A DNA stretch of 64,000 nucleotides from Marinobacter subterrani. GTDB taxonomy: Bacteria; Pseudomonadota; Gammaproteobacteria; Pseudomonadales; Oleiphilaceae. The stretch covers positions 2,232,001 through 2,296,000 of the forward strand of contig NZ_LFBU01000001.1 in NCBI RefSeq assembly GCF_001045555.1, written 5' to 3'. Positions 51,102 to 59,641 of the stretch are shown here, one piece after another. The notes under the pieces were generated by a model, which was not told the origin of the DNA, did no database searches, and worked only from the letters and a program-made list of their open reading frames with translations. The stretch's first letter is position 1. Each line of letters opens with the position of its first letter. The translations under genes were made by a program, and so were the position numbers.

Positions 51102-52511
51102 TCAGGACTGCAGTTTTTTCATTCGCTTGCTCAACGCAGGCTGGGAAATGTCCAGCAGTCGAGATGCAATGGACTGATTGCCGTCGGCACGCCTCATTGC
51201 CTCCTGCACCAGCAAATCCGCCACATCACGCAGCGCCGGCAATGGTTCATCGGCGATGAAAACAGAGCGGTGCTCGACAGGCGCGCGGGTGGTTTCCGAA
51301 CCACTGAAATCGATGGCCCGCTTGAACACAGACATCGACAGCATGCGGGAGCGATGGACGCCCACGGCGTCATACACCATGGCACGCAACTCCCGCACGT
51401 TCCCGGGGAAGTCGTAGTTGGACAAAAGTACCGGCAGCTCCGCAGGTACGACCGGTCTGGTTTTCCCCATCTCCTCGGCAGCCTTGGCGAGAAAGTGCTC
51501 CAGCAACAACGGTATATCCTGCTTGCGGTGCCTTAACGGCGGTATCCGTACATGGTGGGTGCGCAGGCGGTAGTATAGGTCCTTGCGGAATTCCCCTGCT
51601 GCCTGCTTCGTTGCCAGGTCCTGATGGGTGGCAACCAGCACCCTGGCCCGTAGCTGTTTTGGCCGGTCGCTACCCAGGGGATAGTATTCCCCCTCCTGCA
51701 GTAGCCGCAGAAGCTTCACCTGGGACGCCATACTAAGATCACCAATCTCGTCGAGGAACAGGGTTCCCTCAGCGGCCTGCTCGATCATGCCGGCGCGCGC
51801 CGTCTCGGCCCCGGTAAAGGCACCACGCTGGTGGCCAAACAGCGTATCGGCGAACATGTTGTCATCAAGCCCGGCGACATTGACACAAACCAATGATCCC
51901 GGGCGTTTGCTCAGGGTATGTGTAGCGCGAGCGATCAGCTCCTTGCCAGTCCCGCTTTCGCCGCAGACCAGGATCGGCTCGCGGCTCACCGCGACCGATT
52001 CCAGATACTGGAACACCGACCGCATGCCCTTATCCCCCGTGACAATAGGCGCAAACACCTCGGGATGATCCAGAGTGTCGTTGAGGACATGCCGGCGTAG
52101 CGCCTGGTTTTCCTGCCGCAACTCCTGCAGCCGGATAGCCCGCTTGATACCTTCGATCAACCGGTCCTGCTCGTCAGTTTTGACGAAATAATCGAAAGCG
52201 CCGAGCTTGATGCAGTTGACGGCTGTTTCTACCTGATTCAGTCCGCTGATGACGATCACCCCAACCTCCGGGTGTTCCTCAACAATCTGATGCAGCAGTT
52301 CCTCACCACCAACGTGCGGCATGGTCAGATCAAGTGTGACAAGACCGATATTCTCCCGCGCCAGTATCCCCATCACGTCACGGCTATCCTGACAGCGGTG
52401 AAGATGGGTGATACCACCGCTGCGTTCCAGCGCAATCCCGAGACTTCGCAGGAACGAGGGCTCGTCGTCCACCAGCAACACACCAAACGTGGGGTACAGG
52501 CTCTTCGTCAT
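51102..52511 (-). CDS. Sigma-54-dependent response regulator (NtrC family)
   Basis: 469 residues from ATG 52511, with GGAG nine bases upstream; in-frame starts at 52562 and 52568 would overlap or abut the kinase stop and cannot be excluded. Receiver domain first (VLLVDDEPSF; phospho-acceptor in LVTLDLTMPHVGG; VKTDEQD). Then an AAA+ domain with Walker A GESGTGKE, the sigma-54 loop GAFTGAETARAG and Walker B LFLDEIGDL. A Fis-type helix-turn-helix ends it (NQSIASRLLDISQPALSKRM). It likely activates the sigma-54 promoter of the symporter operon downstream. Confidence 0.93.
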   Translation of the reverse strand: MTKSLYPTFGVLLVDDEPSFLRSLGIALERSGGITHLHRCQDSRDVMGILARENIGLVTLDLTMPHVGGEELLHQIVEEHPEVGVIVISGLNQVETAVNCIKLGAFDYFVKTDEQDRLIEGIKRAIRLQELRQENQALRRHVLNDTLDHPEVFAPIVTGDKGMRSVFQYLESVAVSREPILVCGESGTGKELIARATHTLSKRPGSLVCVNVAGLDDNMFADTLFGHQRGAFTGAETARAGMIEQAAEGTLFLDEIGDLSMASQVKLLRLLQEGEYYPLGSDRPKQLRARVLVATHQDLATKQAAGEFRKDLYYRLRTHHVRIPPLRHRKQDIPLLLEHFLAKAAEEMGKTRPVVPAELPVLLSNYDFPGNVRELRAMVYDAVGVHRSRMLSMSVFKRAIDFSGSETTRAPVEHRSVFIADEPLPALRDVADLLVQEAMRRADGNQSIASRLLDISQPALSKRMKKLQS

Positions 52512-52564
52512 CGAACGTGGCTCCGGTCTCGTCTGCGAATATTCACGGGGTTTTGTTGGCATTC

Positions 52565-54298
52565 TCAATCAGTCTGTCGTGCGGGCTGCAGTGCTGGCAG
52601 GGCCAGCCGAACGGTGGTTCCCTCGCCCACTTTGGAATCGAAGGTCAGCCGCCCCCGGTGTTCATTCACGATACCGGCCGACACCGACAGCCCGAGCCCC
52701 GTACCGCCACTCTCGCGTTTGGTGGTAAAAAACGGATCGGTCAGACGGCCGATGACGTCGGGGTCCATACCACAGCCCTGATCCCTGACCTCCAGCAATA
52801 CCTGGGGCCGCCCCATTTTATCAGTGTCAGTATAGGTTCTTAGAAATATACCCTGCTGCGGGTTTTCCAGCGCCTGGCAGGCATTCACGATAAGGTTGAT
52901 CACTACCTGCTCGATCCGCTGGACGTTGCCCCTGACAGCCGGAAGATCGGCACCGTATTCAACCTCGAAATGCCAGGTTGCTTTGCGGATTGAGGTGTCC
53001 ACCAAGCGGATTGCCGTCACAACGACTGCGTTGAAATCCGGGATCTCGCTCAGGTCCTTACTGCCATGGCGAGAGAAGTCCTTGAGGTCGCCAACAATGC
53101 GTTTGATACGGCGGCTGCCTTCCAGCATTTCCTCGAGCATAAGGGGAATCTCATCCCGCATACGCGAGTACTCGAGACCTCCAAGCATGAAGTCTCCATG
53201 CTCGCGATAGTGAGCATCCAGTATGTCCAGGCAATCCGCGTAGGCCTCCTGCAACACCGGCAGGTTAAGCAGCAGGAGGCTGCTTGGATTGTTGATCTCA
53301 TGGGCCACACCGGAAACCAGGACACCCAGCGACGCCATCTTGTCGGCCTGGATCAGTTGCTGCTGATGCTCACGTAAAGACCTGGAACGGCTGTCCACTT
53401 CCCGCTGTAATGTCCGGTTCCAGATCACAATACTGCCCAGAACCAACAGCAGTGTACCAGACACCGCCGCGCCGACCTGGCCGATCAGCTTCCATGGAAT
53501 ACTGCCAGCCTCTTTAAGCGGCCCCAGCCACTTGTCGTAAATCTCCTGATAACGGCCGGTATTCTTGAGAATCGCCAGCCCCTCGGAAAACTGGGCCAGC
53601 AGGTCGGACTGGCCGTTCCGGACAGCGTAGCCGTATGACAACGAGAAGGGTCTCGCCACTGGCACAATGTTAGTCAATCCCAGTTGCCGAGTCAGGTAGA
53701 GCGCCGGCAGGTTGGCAACCAGCGCATAGTCTCCCTTTCCGGAAGACAGCAAGCGCAGCGCATCGGCATGGGTATCGACGGGAATCAGCTTGGCGCCGAC
53801 CTGATGCTCAATCAGGTAATCCTCCATGATGTCACCGCGCTGCACCACGACCTCCTTGTCCTTCAGGCCGCTCACATCAACAACCGGATCGCCACGTCGG
53901 GCAAAGATTGATTGATGCACAATCGCATGGGGTGGGGAGAAGTCGAAGACCTTGGCGCGCTCATCGGAATACGACATCCCCTGAAGCACATCAATCTCGC
54001 CGTCGACAAGCTTTTTACGCATCTCGGACCACTCGCCAAGTTCGATCTTGACGTTAATCCCCATGACCTCGGCAATCGCCCGGGTCAGCTCAACATTGTA
54101 GCCAGCGGGCTCGCCGTTCTCGTCGATATACTCATAGGGAGGATGATAGTGGTCTCCGCCCACAATGACCTGCAACTTGCTGCGCTCAGGCGGGGCTGCC
54201 TCAATCGACAATGGGGTCACCACACACAACAGTATTGCCAGCAATTGCGGCCACCGTATGGCGGCCCGATCTGTCAAGAATAGCTGTACTGATTTCAT
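52565..54298 (-). CDS. Sensor histidine kinase with periplasmic SBP family 3 domain
   Basis: 577 residues. A signal sequence (about 15-35) is followed by an SBP_bac_3 sensor (about 42-255: YEYIDENGEPAGYNVELTRA, LQGMSYSDERAKVFDFSPPH), a membrane helix near 268-290, a short coiled coil, the HisKA box SGVAHEINNPSSLLLLNLP with the phospho-acceptor His, and an HATPase domain (VVINLIVNACQALENP; DQGCGMDPDVIGRL; GGTGLGLSVSAGIV). Such kinases bind an amino acid outside and signal inward. It pairs with the response regulator downstream. Neighbouring genes point to glutamine or glutamate as ligand; this is inference. Confidence 0.93.
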   Translation of the reverse strand: MKSVQLFLTDRAAIRWPQLLAILLCVVTPLSIEAAPPERSKLQVIVGGDHYHPPYEYIDENGEPAGYNVELTRAIAEVMGINVKIELGEWSEMRKKLVDGEIDVLQGMSYSDERAKVFDFSPPHAIVHQSIFARRGDPVVDVSGLKDKEVVVQRGDIMEDYLIEHQVGAKLIPVDTHADALRLLSSGKGDYALVANLPALYLTRQLGLTNIVPVARPFSLSYGYAVRNGQSDLLAQFSEGLAILKNTGRYQEIYDKWLGPLKEAGSIPWKLIGQVGAAVSGTLLLVLGSIVIWNRTLQREVDSRSRSLREHQQQLIQADKMASLGVLVSGVAHEINNPSSLLLLNLPVLQEAYADCLDILDAHYREHGDFMLGGLEYSRMRDEIPLMLEEMLEGSRRIKRIVGDLKDFSRHGSKDLSEIPDFNAVVVTAIRLVDTSIRKATWHFEVEYGADLPAVRGNVQRIEQVVINLIVNACQALENPQQGIFLRTYTDTDKMGRPQVLLEVRDQGCGMDPDVIGRLTDPFFTTKRESGGTGLGLSVSAGIVNEHRGRLTFDSKVGEGTTVRLALPALQPARQTD

Positions 54299-54406
54299 TG
54301 CCGGTGTCAGCCCCGTGGATGAAAAGGCGCCGGGTGGGCTCAGGGAACGTTACTTTACGCAATGGAAATCGGTAAATGCAATTTCCGGGTTCTGAGTTTG
54401 CCGGGA

Positions 54407-54481
54407 TGGTGGGGTTATTTCCCTTGGGAAAAGAACTCGCTGCGCTCAGACACCTTTTCCTGGCGGGAAATAACCCCACCA
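54407..54481. repeat. Hairpin element 1: 17-bp perfect arms around a shared 36-bp core
   Basis: Arms TGGTGGGGTTATTTCCC (54407-54423) and GGGAAATAACCCCACCA (54465-54481) are perfectly complementary. The 41-base loop contains a core (54427-54462) that is nearly the reverse complement of the core of element 2 (35 of 36 bases). The core starts GGAAAAGAACTCGCTGCGCT. There is no T-run after either arm. The arms of the two elements are unrelated apart from being G-rich at the outer end. Confidence 0.8.
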
Positions 54482-54632
54482 CCCCACTCTTAGGGGCCAA
54501 ACAGGTTTCTCTTGAGTGTTGCAGGGTCTGGCTTCGCTTTGTCTGAAAAGCCGGATGTACAAACAAGCTTGCAGGCAACCCCAGGTAAAACCAGGGAAAA
54601 TAGTTGCGACAACTGGAGGTTCATAAGGGTAT

Positions 54633-54712
54633 GGGGGTGGTTTAGATTTTGGACAGGTAAAGGTGTCTGAGCGCAGCGAGTTCTTTTCCAGCCCAAAATC
54701 TAAACCACCCCC
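54633..54712. repeat. Hairpin element 2: 20-bp perfect arms around the same 36-bp core, inverted
   Basis: Arms GGGGGTGGTTTAGATTTTGG (54633-54652) and CCAAAATCTAAACCACCCCC (54693-54712) pair perfectly. The 40-base loop holds the core at 54654-54689, ending AGCGCAGCGAGTTCTTTTCC, which is in the opposite orientation to element 1 and differs at one base. The elements are 151 bp apart in the gap between the kinase and glmS. 54299-54406 and 54482-54632 hold no gene that I can support. Confidence 0.8.
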
Positions 54713-54913
54713 GTGCCCCTCCACCGAACCAACCAGTCCTACCCAATACCCGCCACCCGCACCAAAAGAGTACTCCCACAAAATTCAGGGAATGCCGGGC
54801 ATTAGACGAATTGATGAGTTGACCCAACTTCCGTTTATCCCCTCGACTTTCTGCCAACAAAATCAGTGCATTGCATCAGACTGGGCTGATCTGCCTCATT
54901 ACCAGTAAGAAAT

Positions 54914-54931
54914 AATTACCTTTTGATAATT
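54914..54931. promoter_or_regulatory. AT-rich upstream region of the glm operon with an inverted repeat
   Basis: 54713-55030 has no gene. About 100 bp before glmS the DNA turns AT-rich and contains AATTACCTTTTGATAATT, an inverted repeat (AATTA/TAATT, 8-base spacer) of the size of a LysR box. The LysR gene at the other end of the operon is a possible binder. I see no convincing sigma-54 element here. This is a weak call. Confidence 0.3.
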
Positions 54932-55030
54932 GCAAATAAATCTTTCTTACCTATTATTGTTTCCCAACGTTACTCCACCGCAGCCCGAGTGGCTGCCTCT
55001 ATCACTTAAGCAGGGAGAATGGGAGCTAAG

Positions 55031-55489
55031 ATGAACGCCGCAGCAAAGCACTACAAGGTCGTCCTGGGTGTGATTGGGTCTGATTGTCACGCCGTTGGGA
55101 ACAAGATCATCACCAGCGTGTTGGAACAGGAAGGCATCGCCGTCGTCAATCTCGGGGTAATGGTCAGCCAGGACGAGTTCATCGACACCGCCATTGAGAC
55201 AGGGGCCGATGCCATCCTGGTCTCTTCCATCTATGGCCACGGTGAGATTGACTGCGCGGGTTTTCGTGGCCGCTGCATCGAGCGTGGTGTGGGCGACATC
55301 CTGCTTTACGTAGGGGGCAACCTGGTCATCGGAAAACGCCCTTTCAGCGAGGTCGAGGCCCTGTTTCGCGATATGGGATTCGATCGCGTCTGTTCACCCC
55401 GCTCTGATTTGGTCGACATTGCCGCAACCCTGAAGGACGACATCCTCGAGCGGCGGTATGCCGGGGAGCCAATGCGGATAACGGCATGA
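55031..55489 (+). CDS. glmS: Glutamate mutase small (sigma) subunit, cobalamin-binding
   Basis: 152 residues from ATG 55031 with GGGAG five bases before; an ATG 12 bases upstream is too close to its site. [20 protein letters not shown] contains the DxHxxG motif whose His ligates cobalt in base-off cobalamin; [15 protein letters not shown] and [12 protein letters not shown] are further B12-fold segments. Known GlmS/MutS are about 137 residues, so there is a short C-terminal extension. With GlmE it rearranges L-glutamate to (2S,3S)-3-methylaspartate. It overlaps glmL by 4 bp. Confidence 0.95.
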
Positions 55490-56871
55490 TTATCACCGCT
55501 ATCGATATCGGTTCAACCTGGACCAAGGGCGCTGCGTTCCAGTTGGATGCCAACGAAACGCTGCGGTTGCTTGCCCGTGAAGCGCGGCCCACCACGGTCC
55601 ATAACCTGGCGGAAGGTTTTTTCCAGGTGCGCGATGCGCTGGACCAGCAAGCCGGCTCCGGCACCCTGGTGTATTCCTCCTCCGCCAAGGGCGGGCTGGC
55701 GGTGGCCGCCCTTGGCCTGGTGCCCGACATCACTTCCGAGATGGCCAAGATTGCGGCCTATTCGGCGGGCGCCCGGTTGAGCCAGGTCTATTCCTATCGC
55801 CTGACCCGTGCCGACATCCTGGCACTGGAGCAAAACCCACCGGATATCCTGTTATTCGCCGGGGGCACCGATGGCGGCAATGCCGACTACCTGTTGGCGA
55901 ACGCCGACGCCCTGGCCAGGTCCAGCCTGGACTGCCCCATTGTCTATGCCGGTAACCGCTCGGTGCGCGACGAGCTGGCGGAACGGTTGCAGGGCCGGGA
56001 CGTGCGTTTCGTCGACAACCTGCTGCCCGAGATCGGCCGCCCCAATCCGGAACCGGCACGGGCCGCGCTGCGAGACCTGTTCCTGGACCGGATCGTTACC
56101 GGCAAAGGCCTGGATCGCATCGTTGCCGCTACCGGCGTCGAGCCTGTACCAACCCCTTACGCGGTCTATGAATTCGCCCGGCTGTTAAAGGCCCATCAGC
56201 CCGATTGGGACGAGTTCATGCTGATCGACCTGGGTGGCGCGACCACGGACGTCTACTCCTGCCACGCTGAGCAACCCGTTGCCGGCACCGTGCACCGTGG
56301 CCTGCCGGAACCGCCCCTGAAGCGCACCGTCGAGGGCGACCTGGGCATGCGGGTTTCCGCCGGGGCAGCGGCCGTGTCGGGCCGGGCGTTAATTGACGAA
56401 GGGCTGGGACGTGCGCCGGAGCGGCTGGACGCCTTTGCCGGGCACGTGGAAAGGATCTCCGCCAATCCGGGGATGCTGCCGGATGACGCCACCAGCCAGC
56501 AATTCGACGCCGTACTTGCCGGCGCCTGCCTGGCCGAGGCCTGCAGCCGCCATGCCGGCCGCATGCATGAAGTCAGCACCGTCGATGGATTGGTCAACGT
56601 GCAGACCGGCCGGGACCTGAGAGGTGTCAAGCGCATCATCGGTTCGGGCGGTTACTTGGCCAGCGAGCCGCAGTTCGACCCCAACCCCTGGCTGCAACGG
56701 GTACGGTTGGACGAGCGCAGCCACCAGATACTGGCGCCCCAGTCCGTCCAGTACTACCGCGACGAGCACTACCTGGTTCCGTTGCTGGCCAACGCCGCCC
56801 GCCATTGTCCAGAGGCGGCGGCCCATGCTGCCGGCGTTCTCCTGCAACCTGTCACTCACCAAGCCTCCTGA
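55486..56871 (+). CDS. glmL: GlmL/MutL protein, glutamate mutase-associated ATPase
   Basis: 461 residues. [20 protein letters not shown] is the phosphate-1 loop of the ASKHA (actin/Hsp70-like) fold, and [16 protein letters not shown] the second phosphate loop; [12 protein letters not shown] is the adenosine motif. GlmL is conserved between the mutase subunits in clostridial clusters and is thought to reactivate or chaperone the B12 enzyme. Length is normal. Start ATG overlaps the glmS stop. Confidence 0.93.
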
Positions 56872-56887
56872 ACCGAGACCGACGCCC

Positions 56888-58351
56888 ATGCCCTTTGATG
56901 CCACGTTACCACTGGAAAACAAAGCCTTGTCCCGCGACGCCTTCGAGCAGGAACGGGAACAGACCCTGGGTGGCTGGCCCACCGGCGCGGACGTCAACTT
57001 TGAGGAGGGGGTGCGCTATCAGCTCGACCTGCCTCCCGAGAAGCGCTTCTCGGAGGCGATGCGCAAGGCGGACGAGACAGGCGCGACCCTGCTGCAGCCA
57101 CGGGCCGGGGTGGCGCTGCTGCAGGAACAGATCGAACTGCTCACCGGCTTGCAGGATGTGTGCGATGTATTGCCGACCACCATTGATGCGTACACCCGCC
57201 ACAACCGGTATCAGGAGGCCGATGTCGGTATCGCCCGCTCCAGGGAGGCCGGGCGTTCCCTGATGAACGGCTTCCCCGCGGTCAACCACGGCCTCCGGGG
57301 CTGCCGCGAACTGGTCGAGGCCCTGAGCAAACCGGTGCAGGTACGCCACGGCACGCCGGATGCCCGCCTGTTGGCGGAGATCACCCTGGCGGCCGGCTTC
57401 ACCAGCTACGAAGGTGGTGGTATCTGCTACAACATCCCCTACGCCAAGAGCGTGCCGCTGGCACGAAGCATTCGCCACTGGCAATACTGCGATCGCCTGG
57501 TCGGTCTCTACGAAGAGGCCGGGGTGCGCATCAACCGCGAACCCTTCGGGCCGCTGACAGGCACCCTGGTGCCACCGTTCGTGTCCCACTGCGTGATGAT
57601 CCTGGAAGGCCTGCTGGCGCTGGAACAGGGGGTGCGCTGCATCACCCTCGGTTACGGCCAGGCCGGCAACCTGGTACAGGACATCGCCGCGATCCGTTCC
57701 CTGCGGGAACTGGGGGAGGAATTTTTCAGTGCCGCCGGCTATGAGGGCTACCAGCTGTCGACGGTGTTTCACCAGTGGATGGGGGGGTTCCCGGAAGAGG
57801 AATCCAAGGCCTATGGGGTGATCTGCCTGGGTGCGGCGGCGGCTTCACTGGCCGGCGCTACCAAGGTCATTGTAAAGACCCCACACGAGGCGGAGGGAGT
57901 GCCGACCCTGGCCGCCAACCGGGACGGCCTGAAAGCCACCCGCCAGATGATCAACATGTTGAGCGAGCAGGTCAAACCCACCAGCGCCGAGATCGAACTG
58001 GAAACCGATATGATCAAGCGGGAAGTTCGCGCCGTGTTGTCCAAGGTGTTCGAGCTGGGTGAAGGCAATATTGCCGTTGGCACGGTGCGGGCGTTCGAGT
58101 CCGGGGTCATGGACATTCCCTTCGCCCCGGCGCAGGCCAACGCCGGCGTGCTGATGCCGGTGCGGGACGACCATGGCGCCCTGCGCGTGCTGGAGAAGGG
58201 CAATTCACCGCTGCCGGACGACGTGCTCGCCTTCCACCGCGACAAGATCGACGAACGCGCCCGCTCCGAAGGGCGCGAAGCCAGCTTCAAGATGGTGGTT
58301 GACGATGTGAACGCCATCTCCGACGGTCGCCTGGTCGGCCGGCCCAAATAA
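56888..58351 (+). CDS. glmE: Glutamate mutase large (epsilon) subunit
   Basis: 487 residues from ATG 56888, close to the 483-485 of known GlmE. TLGGWPTGADVNFEEGVRYQ, VRHGTPDARLLAEITLAAGF, TSYEGGGICYNIPYAKSVPL and TVFHQWMGGFPEEESKAYGV are characteristic; the Arg residues that hold the glutamate carboxylates fall in these blocks (for example VRHGTPD). It forms the TIM barrel that binds glutamate, together with GlmS. The open frame extends upstream inside glmL but has no family support there. The ribosome site is weak, so coupling to glmL is likely. Confidence 0.95.
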   Translation: MPFDATLPLENKALSRDAFEQEREQTLGGWPTGADVNFEEGVRYQLDLPPEKRFSEAMRKADETGATLLQPRAGVALLQEQIELLTGLQDVCDVLPTTIDAYTRHNRYQEADVGIARSREAGRSLMNGFPAVNHGLRGCRELVEALSKPVQVRHGTPDARLLAEITLAAGFTSYEGGGICYNIPYAKSVPLARSIRHWQYCDRLVGLYEEAGVRINREPFGPLTGTLVPPFVSHCVMILEGLLALEQGVRCITLGYGQAGNLVQDIAAIRSLRELGEEFFSAAGYEGYQLSTVFHQWMGGFPEEESKAYGVICLGAAAASLAGATKVIVKTPHEAEGVPTLAANRDGLKATRQMINMLSEQVKPTSAEIELETDMIKREVRAVLSKVFELGEGNIAVGTVRAFESGVMDIPFAPAQANAGVLMPVRDDHGALRVLEKGNSPLPDDVLAFHRDKIDERARSEGREASFKMVVDDVNAISDGRLVGRPK

Positions 58352-58384
58352 TTCGATAACCGTACGACGGGAACGCTTAGCGAT

Positions 58385-59641
58385 ATGAAAATCAAGAATG
58401 CCTATTTCGTCGGGGGCCTGTCCTCTTTCTATTTCGACGACCAGCAGGCCATCAAGGACGGCGCCGGCCTGGACGGTTTCACTTACCAGGGGGCGGCGGT
58501 GACTTCCGGCTTCCAGGCCATCCGCCAGGCCGGCGAGTGCGTGTCCGTCATGCTGGAGCTGGATGACGGCAGCATCGCCCTTGGCGACTGTGCGGCGGTG
58601 CAGTATTCCGGCGCCGCCGGGCGTGATCCCCTGTTCCGGGCGGACGCCTTCGTGCCGTTTATGGAAACCCACCTGCGCCCTCTCCTGACAGGAATGGACG
58701 TCCGCCGTTTCGATGTCAACGCCCGCTATATAGACGGCCTGGTTATTGATGGCAAACCGCTTCACACCGCCATTCGTTACGGTGTTTCCCAGGCGTTGCT
58801 GGATGCCGCGGCCCTCGCAAGGCGTTGCCTGAAAACCGAAGTGATCTGTCGTGAATACGAACTCCCGGTGGTGGCGGAGGCGGTGCCGCTGTTCGGCCAA
58901 AGCGGCGACGACCGCTATGGTGCGGTCGACAAGATGGTGCTGAAAAAAGCCGACGTCCTGCCCCACGGCCTGATCAATAACATTCCGGACAAGCTGGGTG
59001 ACCAGGGCGGCCGCCTGATCGAATACGTTGACTGGCTGGTGCACCGCATACGGCACCTGAGCCAGGGCAATGATTACCGGCCGGATCTGCACATCGACGT
59101 CTACGGTACCGTGGGGATGATCTTCAACCAGGACCCGACGCTGATCGCGGATTACCTGGCCCGGCTCGGTGACGTGGCCGGGGAGCTTCCCCTCTGTATC
59201 GAAGGGCCGGTGGACGCGGGTGGCAAGGGCGCCCAGATTGAAGCCCTGGGTGGCATCCGCCAGCGGCTTGATGCCCTTGGCGCCAACATCCGTATCGTCG
59301 CGGACGAATGGTGCAACACCTACCAGGACGTGGTCGATTTCGCCGATGCCCAATGCTGCCACATGGTGCAGATCAAAACGCCCGACCTGGGCAGCGTCCA
59401 CAACGTGGTCGACGCCGTGCTCCACTGCAACCGCAGGGGCGTCCAGGCCTACCAGGGCGGAACCTGCAACGAGACTGACATTTCCGCCCGCACCTGCGTA
59501 CACCTGGCCCTTGCCGCCCGCCCGATGCGCATGCTGGTCAAGCCCGGCATGGGTTTCGACGAAGGCATGACCGTGGTGGGCAATGAGATGCATCGCAGTG
59601 TTGCCCTGCTGAAAACCCGGCAACACCCGGAAAGAGGATAA
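58385..59641 (+). CDS. mal: Methylaspartate ammonia-lyase
   Basis: 418 residues, family length about 413. An enolase-superfamily enzyme: the catalytic Lys is in CCHMVQIKTPDLGSVHNVVD, and metal ligands come from HIDVYGTVG, CIEGPVDAG and RIVADEWCNTYQD. SAVQYSG-like GDCAAVQYSGAAGRDPLF is typical. It removes ammonia from 3-methylaspartate to give mesaconate. It follows glmE by 33 bp, as in clostridial clusters. Gene symbol follows common use. Confidence 0.96.
   Translation: MKIKNAYFVGGLSSFYFDDQQAIKDGAGLDGFTYQGAAVTSGFQAIRQAGECVSVMLELDDGSIALGDCAAVQYSGAAGRDPLFRADAFVPFMETHLRPLLTGMDVRRFDVNARYIDGLVIDGKPLHTAIRYGVSQALLDAAALARRCLKTEVICREYELPVVAEAVPLFGQSGDDRYGAVDKMVLKKADVLPHGLINNIPDKLGDQGGRLIEYVDWLVHRIRHLSQGNDYRPDLHIDVYGTVGMIFNQDPTLIADYLARLGDVAGELPLCIEGPVDAGGKGAQIEALGGIRQRLDALGANIRIVADEWCNTYQDVVDFADAQCCHMVQIKTPDLGSVHNVVDAVLHCNRRGVQAYQGGTCNETDISARTCVHLALAARPMRMLVKPGMGFDEGMTVVGNEMHRSVALLKTRQHPERG

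Follow-up and report, generated by a model that had tools for sequence, protein, structure and literature searches.

Paired hairpins with a constant tip and variable complementary arms form a dispersed repeat family in Marinobacter and other bacteria

In the consulted part of PMC3733652, REP families are described as having stems of 5-13 bp and loops of 2-20 nt, and three groups covered there come closest to the element reported here. GTAG-tagged REPs and REPINs are likewise small intergenic palindromes that lie downstream of genes, often as inverted pairs, and a GTAG-type tag stands beside part of the Marinobacter copies of our element; however, the stems of these REPs, 5-13 bp long, are conserved, whereas here arms of 17-21 bp vary freely around a conserved tip, the units measure 345-700 bp, and no RAYT is consistently present (PMC3733652). 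CGTC-tagged REPs are also palindromic, occur in inverted pairs and are without a known dedicated transposase, but the same part of that source gives them sequence-conserved stems of 8-9 bp (PMC3733652). The TIRtrons of S. maltophilia and others are long, partly self-complementary repeats found in pairs, as our units are, but are defined by an adjoining Y1 transposase (PMC3733652, same part); they are set apart here on that definition, and the core of our element was absent from all Y1 loci fetched from Stenotrophomonas records. In placement and pairing the element is REP- or MITE-like, with the conserved part inverted relative to the REP families as presented in that part of PMC3733652. In the portion of the literature on REP/REPIN and stem-loop catalogues that was consulted, no described family combines a constant tip with arms that vary freely. 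Structure is kept while arm sequence varies in integron attC sites, fungal mitochondrial double-hairpin elements and the flip/flop terminal palindromes of parvoviruses, systems that involve a folded strand or flipping termini; any likeness of our hairpins to these would be one of analogy.

The window, that is, the whole stretch of 64,000 nucleotides of Marinobacter subterrani DNA that was analysed, contains one pair of such hairpins, with the following features.

54402..54746, unstranded: whole paired-hairpin unit of about 345 bp, which, unlike its flanks, has matches of 70-85% along its whole extent at other Marinobacter sites
54403..54485, plus strand: hairpin 1, core in + form (direct reading, repeat search, folding)
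54434..54452, plus strand: conserved 19-nt core of hairpin 1, AACTCGCTGCGCTCAGACA (genome pattern search, contig C1 2286434-2286452; shuffles)
54486..54626, unstranded: spacer between the hairpins, conserved within the unit elsewhere by alignment and grouped with 10 other spacers
54627..54718, minus strand: hairpin 2, core reversed (direct reading, repeat search, folding)
54664..54682, minus strand: conserved 19-nt core of hairpin 2 (genome pattern search, contig C1 2286664-2286682; shuffles)
54734..54742, minus strand: GTAGGACTG tag outside hairpin 2 (direct reading, alignment, tag statistics)

The initial annotation had described two hairpins with unrelated arms and near-identical cores in opposite orientation, and direct reading, a repeat search, shuffles and folding all bear this out. 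By direct reading and repeat search, hairpin 1 has perfect 17-bp arms (54407-54423 / 54465-54481) around a loop of 41 nt, its arms being 95% complementary when extended to 21 nt (54403-54423 / 54465-54485), and hairpin 2 has perfect 20-bp arms (54633-54652 / 54693-54712) around a loop of 40 nt. The arms of the two hairpins are unrelated to each other, and both loops contain a 36-nt core, GGAAAAGAACTCGCTGCGCTCAGACACCTTT[T/A]CCTG, in opposite orientations and with one base differing. A 24-nt piece of this core occurs twice in the window and in none of 100 shuffles, and single-strand DNA folds of the four strands of the hairpins have z-scores of -7.0 to -8.1. A matching GTAGGACTG tag is absent from the left of hairpin 1 in the window copy. 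To the left of the pair a minus-strand ORF (52565-54298) encodes a histidine kinase, and to its right, from 55019, plus-strand ORFs encode methylaspartate (glutamate) mutase subunit S and GlmL, so that the gap holding the pair is divergent, in agreement with its earlier placement between a sensor kinase and a glutamate mutase operon. The region 51102-59641 brings together the kinase, an AtoC/NtrC-like regulator, methylaspartate mutase S, GlmL and methylaspartate ammonia-lyase, and is a regulated methylaspartate-type catabolic cluster.

The pattern AACTCGCT[G/T]CGCTCAGACA finds 22 cores in the 4.45-Mb, two-contig genome of the organism (nine exact, 12 with T for G and one with one further change), whereas its reversed control finds none. 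Each of the 22 is placed apically in a long stem, and what was observed in the window holds generally. One extra match with three mismatches was spurious, and an open three-mismatch search of the same genome gave no more diverged true copy. Further copies exist, conservation lies in the core and not in the arms, and each of these cores is flanked by arms, where the initial annotation had allowed for missing copies, conserved arms or cores standing bare. With at most one mismatch, the core is found in 34 of 37 genomes of the genus, own genome included, and in none of 21 genomes of other genera in the order; 20 of 398 genomes drawn from the phylum hold it, of which three are congeners and the other 17 belong to the rest of the class. 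A scan of a species-genome collection gave at least 119 stretches with the core, mostly Marinobacter. Other holders among the matches listed, which include further Gammaproteobacteria and Bacillota, were Stenotrophomonas, Pseudoxanthomonas, Silvimonas, Undibacterium, Halopseudomonas, Wenzhouxiangella, Burkholderiales, Oceanospirillaceae, Desulfuromonadales, Blautia, Lachnospiraceae, Acidaminococcaceae, Phascolarctobacterium, Mogibacterium, Bacteroidales, Parabacteroides and a Stahlbacteria bin; the non-proteobacterial records are in many cases metagenome bins. Twenty genomes chosen for holding a core had 2-47 cores in 19 cases and a single one in the remaining case (control 0); their cores have any of the four bases at the ninth position and A or G at the R position. 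Viral contigs gave three core matches, all from one metagenome. Read on the other strand the tip is GCGNAGC, and sequences of this type form unusually stable DNA mini-hairpins. Cores are often found no more than about 120 bases from the end of a contig (G001:C4, G334:C6/C7/C15/C17, G519:C5/C6, G520:C97), as if assemblies broke at the hairpins.

Arm complementarity was compared with a control in which each left arm was paired with the right arm of another copy, leaving out copies less than 70 nt from a locus end and exact duplicates. A looser set had counted L134-L172 as Marinobacter, of which nine of the 39 belong to Stenotrophomonas, Pseudoxanthomonas, Mogibacterium, Bacteroidaceae and Parabacteroides; this set underlies the stop-distance, tag, spacer-group, stem-score (229), conserved-mismatch, arm-identity, gene-context and T-tract counts, and the key tests were repeated on a strict set from which L134-L172 were removed. 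A stem score of at least 30 was reached by 174/174 copies of the strict set and by 26/174 after swapping (219/229 against 34/229 in the looser set; 50/61 against 6 for L134-L172 apart). In other taxa the figures were 17/59 and 0/59, with median scores of 24 and 2, so that outside Marinobacter the arms are genuinely complementary, in stems of lesser length or with more bulges. At L065, L101 and L112 the fold does not place the core at the tip. Mean identity between copies is 44% for the arms and 96% for the tip, a value in which tip variation is limited by the search pattern, and the longest perfect stem run has a median of 17. Among the 22 own copies, 15 of 21 predicted pairs are changed on both sides, in a covariation fold whose underlying alignment gaps the arms and whose consensus energy is only -4.3 kcal/mol. 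These copies support the earlier proposal of a small element, dispersed in the genome, whose core is constant while its arms change.

Part of the cores are organised in pairs. Neighbouring cores of the strict Marinobacter set are oriented +/- in 49 cases, 41 of them at 150-320 bp, compared with 6 -/+, 4 -/- and 3 +/+; judged by their listed positions, +/- pairs about 200-305 bp apart are also present in two Undibacterium, a Burkholderiales bin and an Acidaminococcaceae bin, and the pairs of Pseudoxanthomonas GM95 and G449 are mostly -/+ and about 300-510 bp apart. The window pair matches as one block at an unrelated site in L204, at 85% over 347 bp. The unit also matches at 78-81% at one pepA/holC-valS site in six genomes (L205, L207-L211), where holC and valS flanking the L205 copy were identified by Pfam and pepA is our assignment from its sequence, and at 70% in L214; in L203 the kinase region matches at 89% with no unit match there. 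The window hairpins, first taken for two separate elements, instead form the termini of a single unit of about 345 bp. The amplified units of G449 measure about 700 bp, many of the matches listed align at 90-97%, and two arm types are shared among them; unit ends, from alignments of the window unit and of the G449 units, are approximate. The presence of the same arms at unrelated sites implies that units move and that arms travel with the copy. This contradicts the earlier suggestion that arms are made from the target by inverted duplication at insertion, which would suit the finding that most copies have arms of their own, as do even L008 and L354 at a shared site, but which the sharing of arms by copies at unrelated sites leaves scarcely credible. 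Alike non-coding units at unrelated sites, such as those of G449 and the one common to the window and L204, are a mark of MITE-like elements; an autonomous, transposase-encoding relative was absent from the wide core pairs read, which hold ordinary genes, one RAYT and one IS3-type insertion, and the loci read had no gene for a moving enzyme between paired cores. Some G449 units (L366, L395-L397) are about 1.7 kb, compared with 0.3-0.5 kb between cores, the extra sequence in L366 encoding an IS3-family transposase, and large units of this genome (L399-L409) are bordered on both sides by degenerate hexanucleotide-like repeats of the GCAACA / GGCTTT type.

Arms that can be aligned change together. 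Hairpin 2 of the window differs from L204 by three substitutions in the arm stretch GGTGGTTTAGATTT, each of them matched in the opposite arm. Comparison of 14 shared-site hairpins with G009, excluding L008, whose arms are not alignable with those of G009, gave 455 complementary pairs, 414 unchanged and 41 changed; ten of the latter were changed on both sides and still complementary, two on both sides and no longer so, and 29 on one side only, and arm matching is therefore incomplete. Of the ten matched changes, five are double transversions, for which a wobble pair offers no intermediate step, and L005 alone has four matched changes and none unmatched. The ratio of ten matched to two unmatched double changes, together with the covariation among the 22 own copies, sustains the initial annotation's alternative, in which the arms are structural and their changes compensatory. 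L006 has retained arms, and everything between them is inverted in G009 and M. vinifirmus (inverted against direct scores of 123 and 64.5, and of 103 and 44.5), and L009 compared with L160 likely represents the same inversion (115 and 50); three of the ten comparisons examined, covering two sites, keep the arms well enough for such calls. Both orientations occur at 13 of 44 shared sites, the largest of which may join left and right pair members. As judged from these alignments, units recur together with their arms, and the segment between arms has been inverted at one clear and one likely site. Template switching has been reported to homogenise inverted-repeat arms and invert spacers (PMC8604942) and to produce multibase compensatory changes (PMC8794818), and the arm matching and spacer inversion seen here are signatures of replication template switching as published in the consulted parts of these two papers.

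Template switching requires no selection, and the hairpins could be neutral palindromes, old copies without present recognition whose arms are perfect only through this process. Behind the HDOD gene, where an ORF rule was used to pick the neighbour, which is not always ung, the 30 genomes compared have six family A hairpins with differing arms, five hairpins of a second family, two apparent tipless remnants and 17 cases of other or almost no sequence. Tipless remnants at some sites (G023, G029) would fit this reading; however, the tip is kept across phyla while all else changes, single tip mismatches in relatives are of few recurrent types, and the open search of the own genome gave no true copy of greater divergence, making neutrality improbable in our judgement.

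Isolated mismatches in the outer arms indicate which strand folds. On the core strand of the strict set, A.C/C.A mismatches outnumber G.T/T.G by 34 to 4 (p=6e-7), a count inflated by a conserved C.A mismatch below the G-rich stem and amounting to 12 A.C against 2 G.T without C.A and T.G. The same bias appears in other taxa (39 to 10, p=4e-5; 15 to 4 with a stricter flank), and in L134-L172 apart the mismatches number 21 to 3. Because Watson-Crick composition is equal on either strand, composition alone is no cause of this bias, and A.C/C.A mismatches on the core strand are wobble pairs on the other. The bias points to that other strand, with tip TGTCTGAGCGNAGCGAGTT, as the probable folding strand; a strand-biased mutation process is a possible alternative source. 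In the window hairpins, predicted RNA folds of the folding strand reach -52.4 against -50.3 and -55.5 against -50.2 kcal/mol, the folding strand also folds somewhat better as DNA, and among the 22 own copies it has G-U wobble in 9/22 at columns 39/61 and in 8/22 at columns 33/66.

These folding data would also suit the main rival, a structured RNA at gene ends whose tip binds a protein or small RNA and whose arm pairing is kept by ordinary selection. The stronger RNA folds, the G-U wobble and the repetition of the mismatch bias in other taxa are consistent with it, selection on RNA could also yield matched changes, and across all taxa the stop of a same-strand upstream ORF lies 55-98 bp before the tip centre in 73 of 118 copies that have such an ORF, the upstream ORF being on the opposite strand in 45 copies. 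Against it, whole units move, five of the ten matched changes are unbridgeable by wobble, and tandem-gene singles more often place the other strand in the message. With gene context assigned by simple longest-ORF calling, Marinobacter-labelled singles comprise 41 convergent, 27 tandem sense, 10 tandem antisense and 3 divergent copies, with 60 set aside, and Marinobacter-labelled pairs 12 convergent, 15 tandem and 2 divergent, with 28 set aside; the window pair belongs to the rare divergent class. Nor is any Rfam family present at gathering scores: Rfam 15 gave no gathering-score match in 16 loci, a further search gave none up to E=1, and sub-threshold matches were to eukaryotic miRNA and lncRNA families only. 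We therefore consider an RNA role rather unlikely, although it is the strongest competitor to a mobile DNA unit. The 41 of 81 classified singles in convergent gaps would also be expected of bidirectional intrinsic terminators, but the window region has no terminator-like site and at least eight T in the 15 bases after the stem were found in 5/219 copies on one strand and 0/219 on the other, so that with no T tract after the stem intrinsic termination was ruled out as a highly improbable explanation.

Copies seen adjoin core genes such as HDOD, ung, holC and valS. With genome lengths rounded and the origin placed opposite dif, 11 one-contig genomes had 113 copies in 59 clusters, with 69% in the origin half (KS p=6e-4, the genomes being related and not independent), and fork orientation (38/61, p=0.07) gave no clear lagging-strand bias. 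A dif-like 24-mer was present once per genome in 13 of 13 genus genomes searched, at 601793 of contig C1 in the own genome.

An atypical REP/REPIN that depends on a RAYT (Y1 tyrosine transposase) for its movement would account for the intergenic position, for the inverted pairs and for the GTAG-type tag outside the hairpin in some Marinobacter copies; a tag within one mismatch of GTAGCCTG at -70 to -41 is present in 57/229 copies against four after shuffling, and in 45/174 of the strict set. In L200 about 160 bp separate a RAYT (NF047646) from a core, and in G003 another core has a Y1 match at a distance of about 700 bp. However, a search of 23 genus genomes gave no Y1_Tnp match in nine that hold 6-29 cores, G006 and G020 lack the core in spite of their Y1 matches, and the core is absent from all 60 Y1 loci inspected with 1.5-kb flanks, some of which came from core-less genomes. 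In the part of PMC3733652 consulted, known REP stems are moreover short and conserved within a family, which the perfect runs and arm identities given above are not. With two Y1 genes near cores and no consistent association, this candidate was dropped; the known REP transposase fits poorly as the mover, and we give the RAYT reading a small probability. The REP-associated tyrosine transposase (NF047646) of L200 (1664-2185; G017) is enclosed by two convergent cores that are 1302 bp apart. Classical REP-like repeats of the GTAGGTCGGATTAGCGAAGCGTAATCCGAC type are found beside or between the hairpins in L002, L020, L021 and L200, and the tip of these repeats also has GCGAAGC.

At the level of sequence comparison, the family comprises many copies with a fixed tip, variable complementary arms, paired units and matched changes. 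A fixed tip with free but matched arms poses two requirements, a process that matches the arms and recognition of the tip by some factor, and the movement of whole units favours a DNA-level moving factor over an RNA role. We thus favour a MITE/REP-like non-coding mobile unit that is recognised by its tip and whose arms are kept complementary by template switching, to which we assign a probability of a little under one half. Replication template switching would copy one arm from the other, keeping complementarity while sequence drifts, and would occasionally flip the segment between the arms. A putative protein would read the folded single strand at its tip and bulge and move the unit, which would explain both the constant tip and the free arms. 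More tentatively, the hairpins may belong to a mobile class found across bacterial phyla, in which the sole conserved signal is the folded-strand tip TGTYTGAGCGNAGCGAGTT, the arms are disposable through template switching, and the tip is read by a putative single-strand recombinase. If so, some bacterial palindromic repeats are defined by their tip, not by their stem, and stem-based repeat searches would miss or split such families. The family would also be a natural record of template switching, as matched changes and inverted spacers can be counted per site across species, and it raises the question of what preserves one 19-nt tip in both Marinobacter and Blautia.

A further hairpin family of Marinobacter, whose tip is different and whose arms are equally free, suggests a general design. 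Its hairpins have the apical domain ACGCTGTGAATAC ... CATCCATG ..., and four of its loci (L263, L281, L060, L062) had no Rfam gathering match. They lie behind HDOD at L263, L270, L281, L286 and L290 and are also present at L060, L062, L073, L081, L122, L144, L218 and L269. Their arms are again variable and complementary, 12 of 14 anchors having a matching arm with at most one mismatch over 8 nt.
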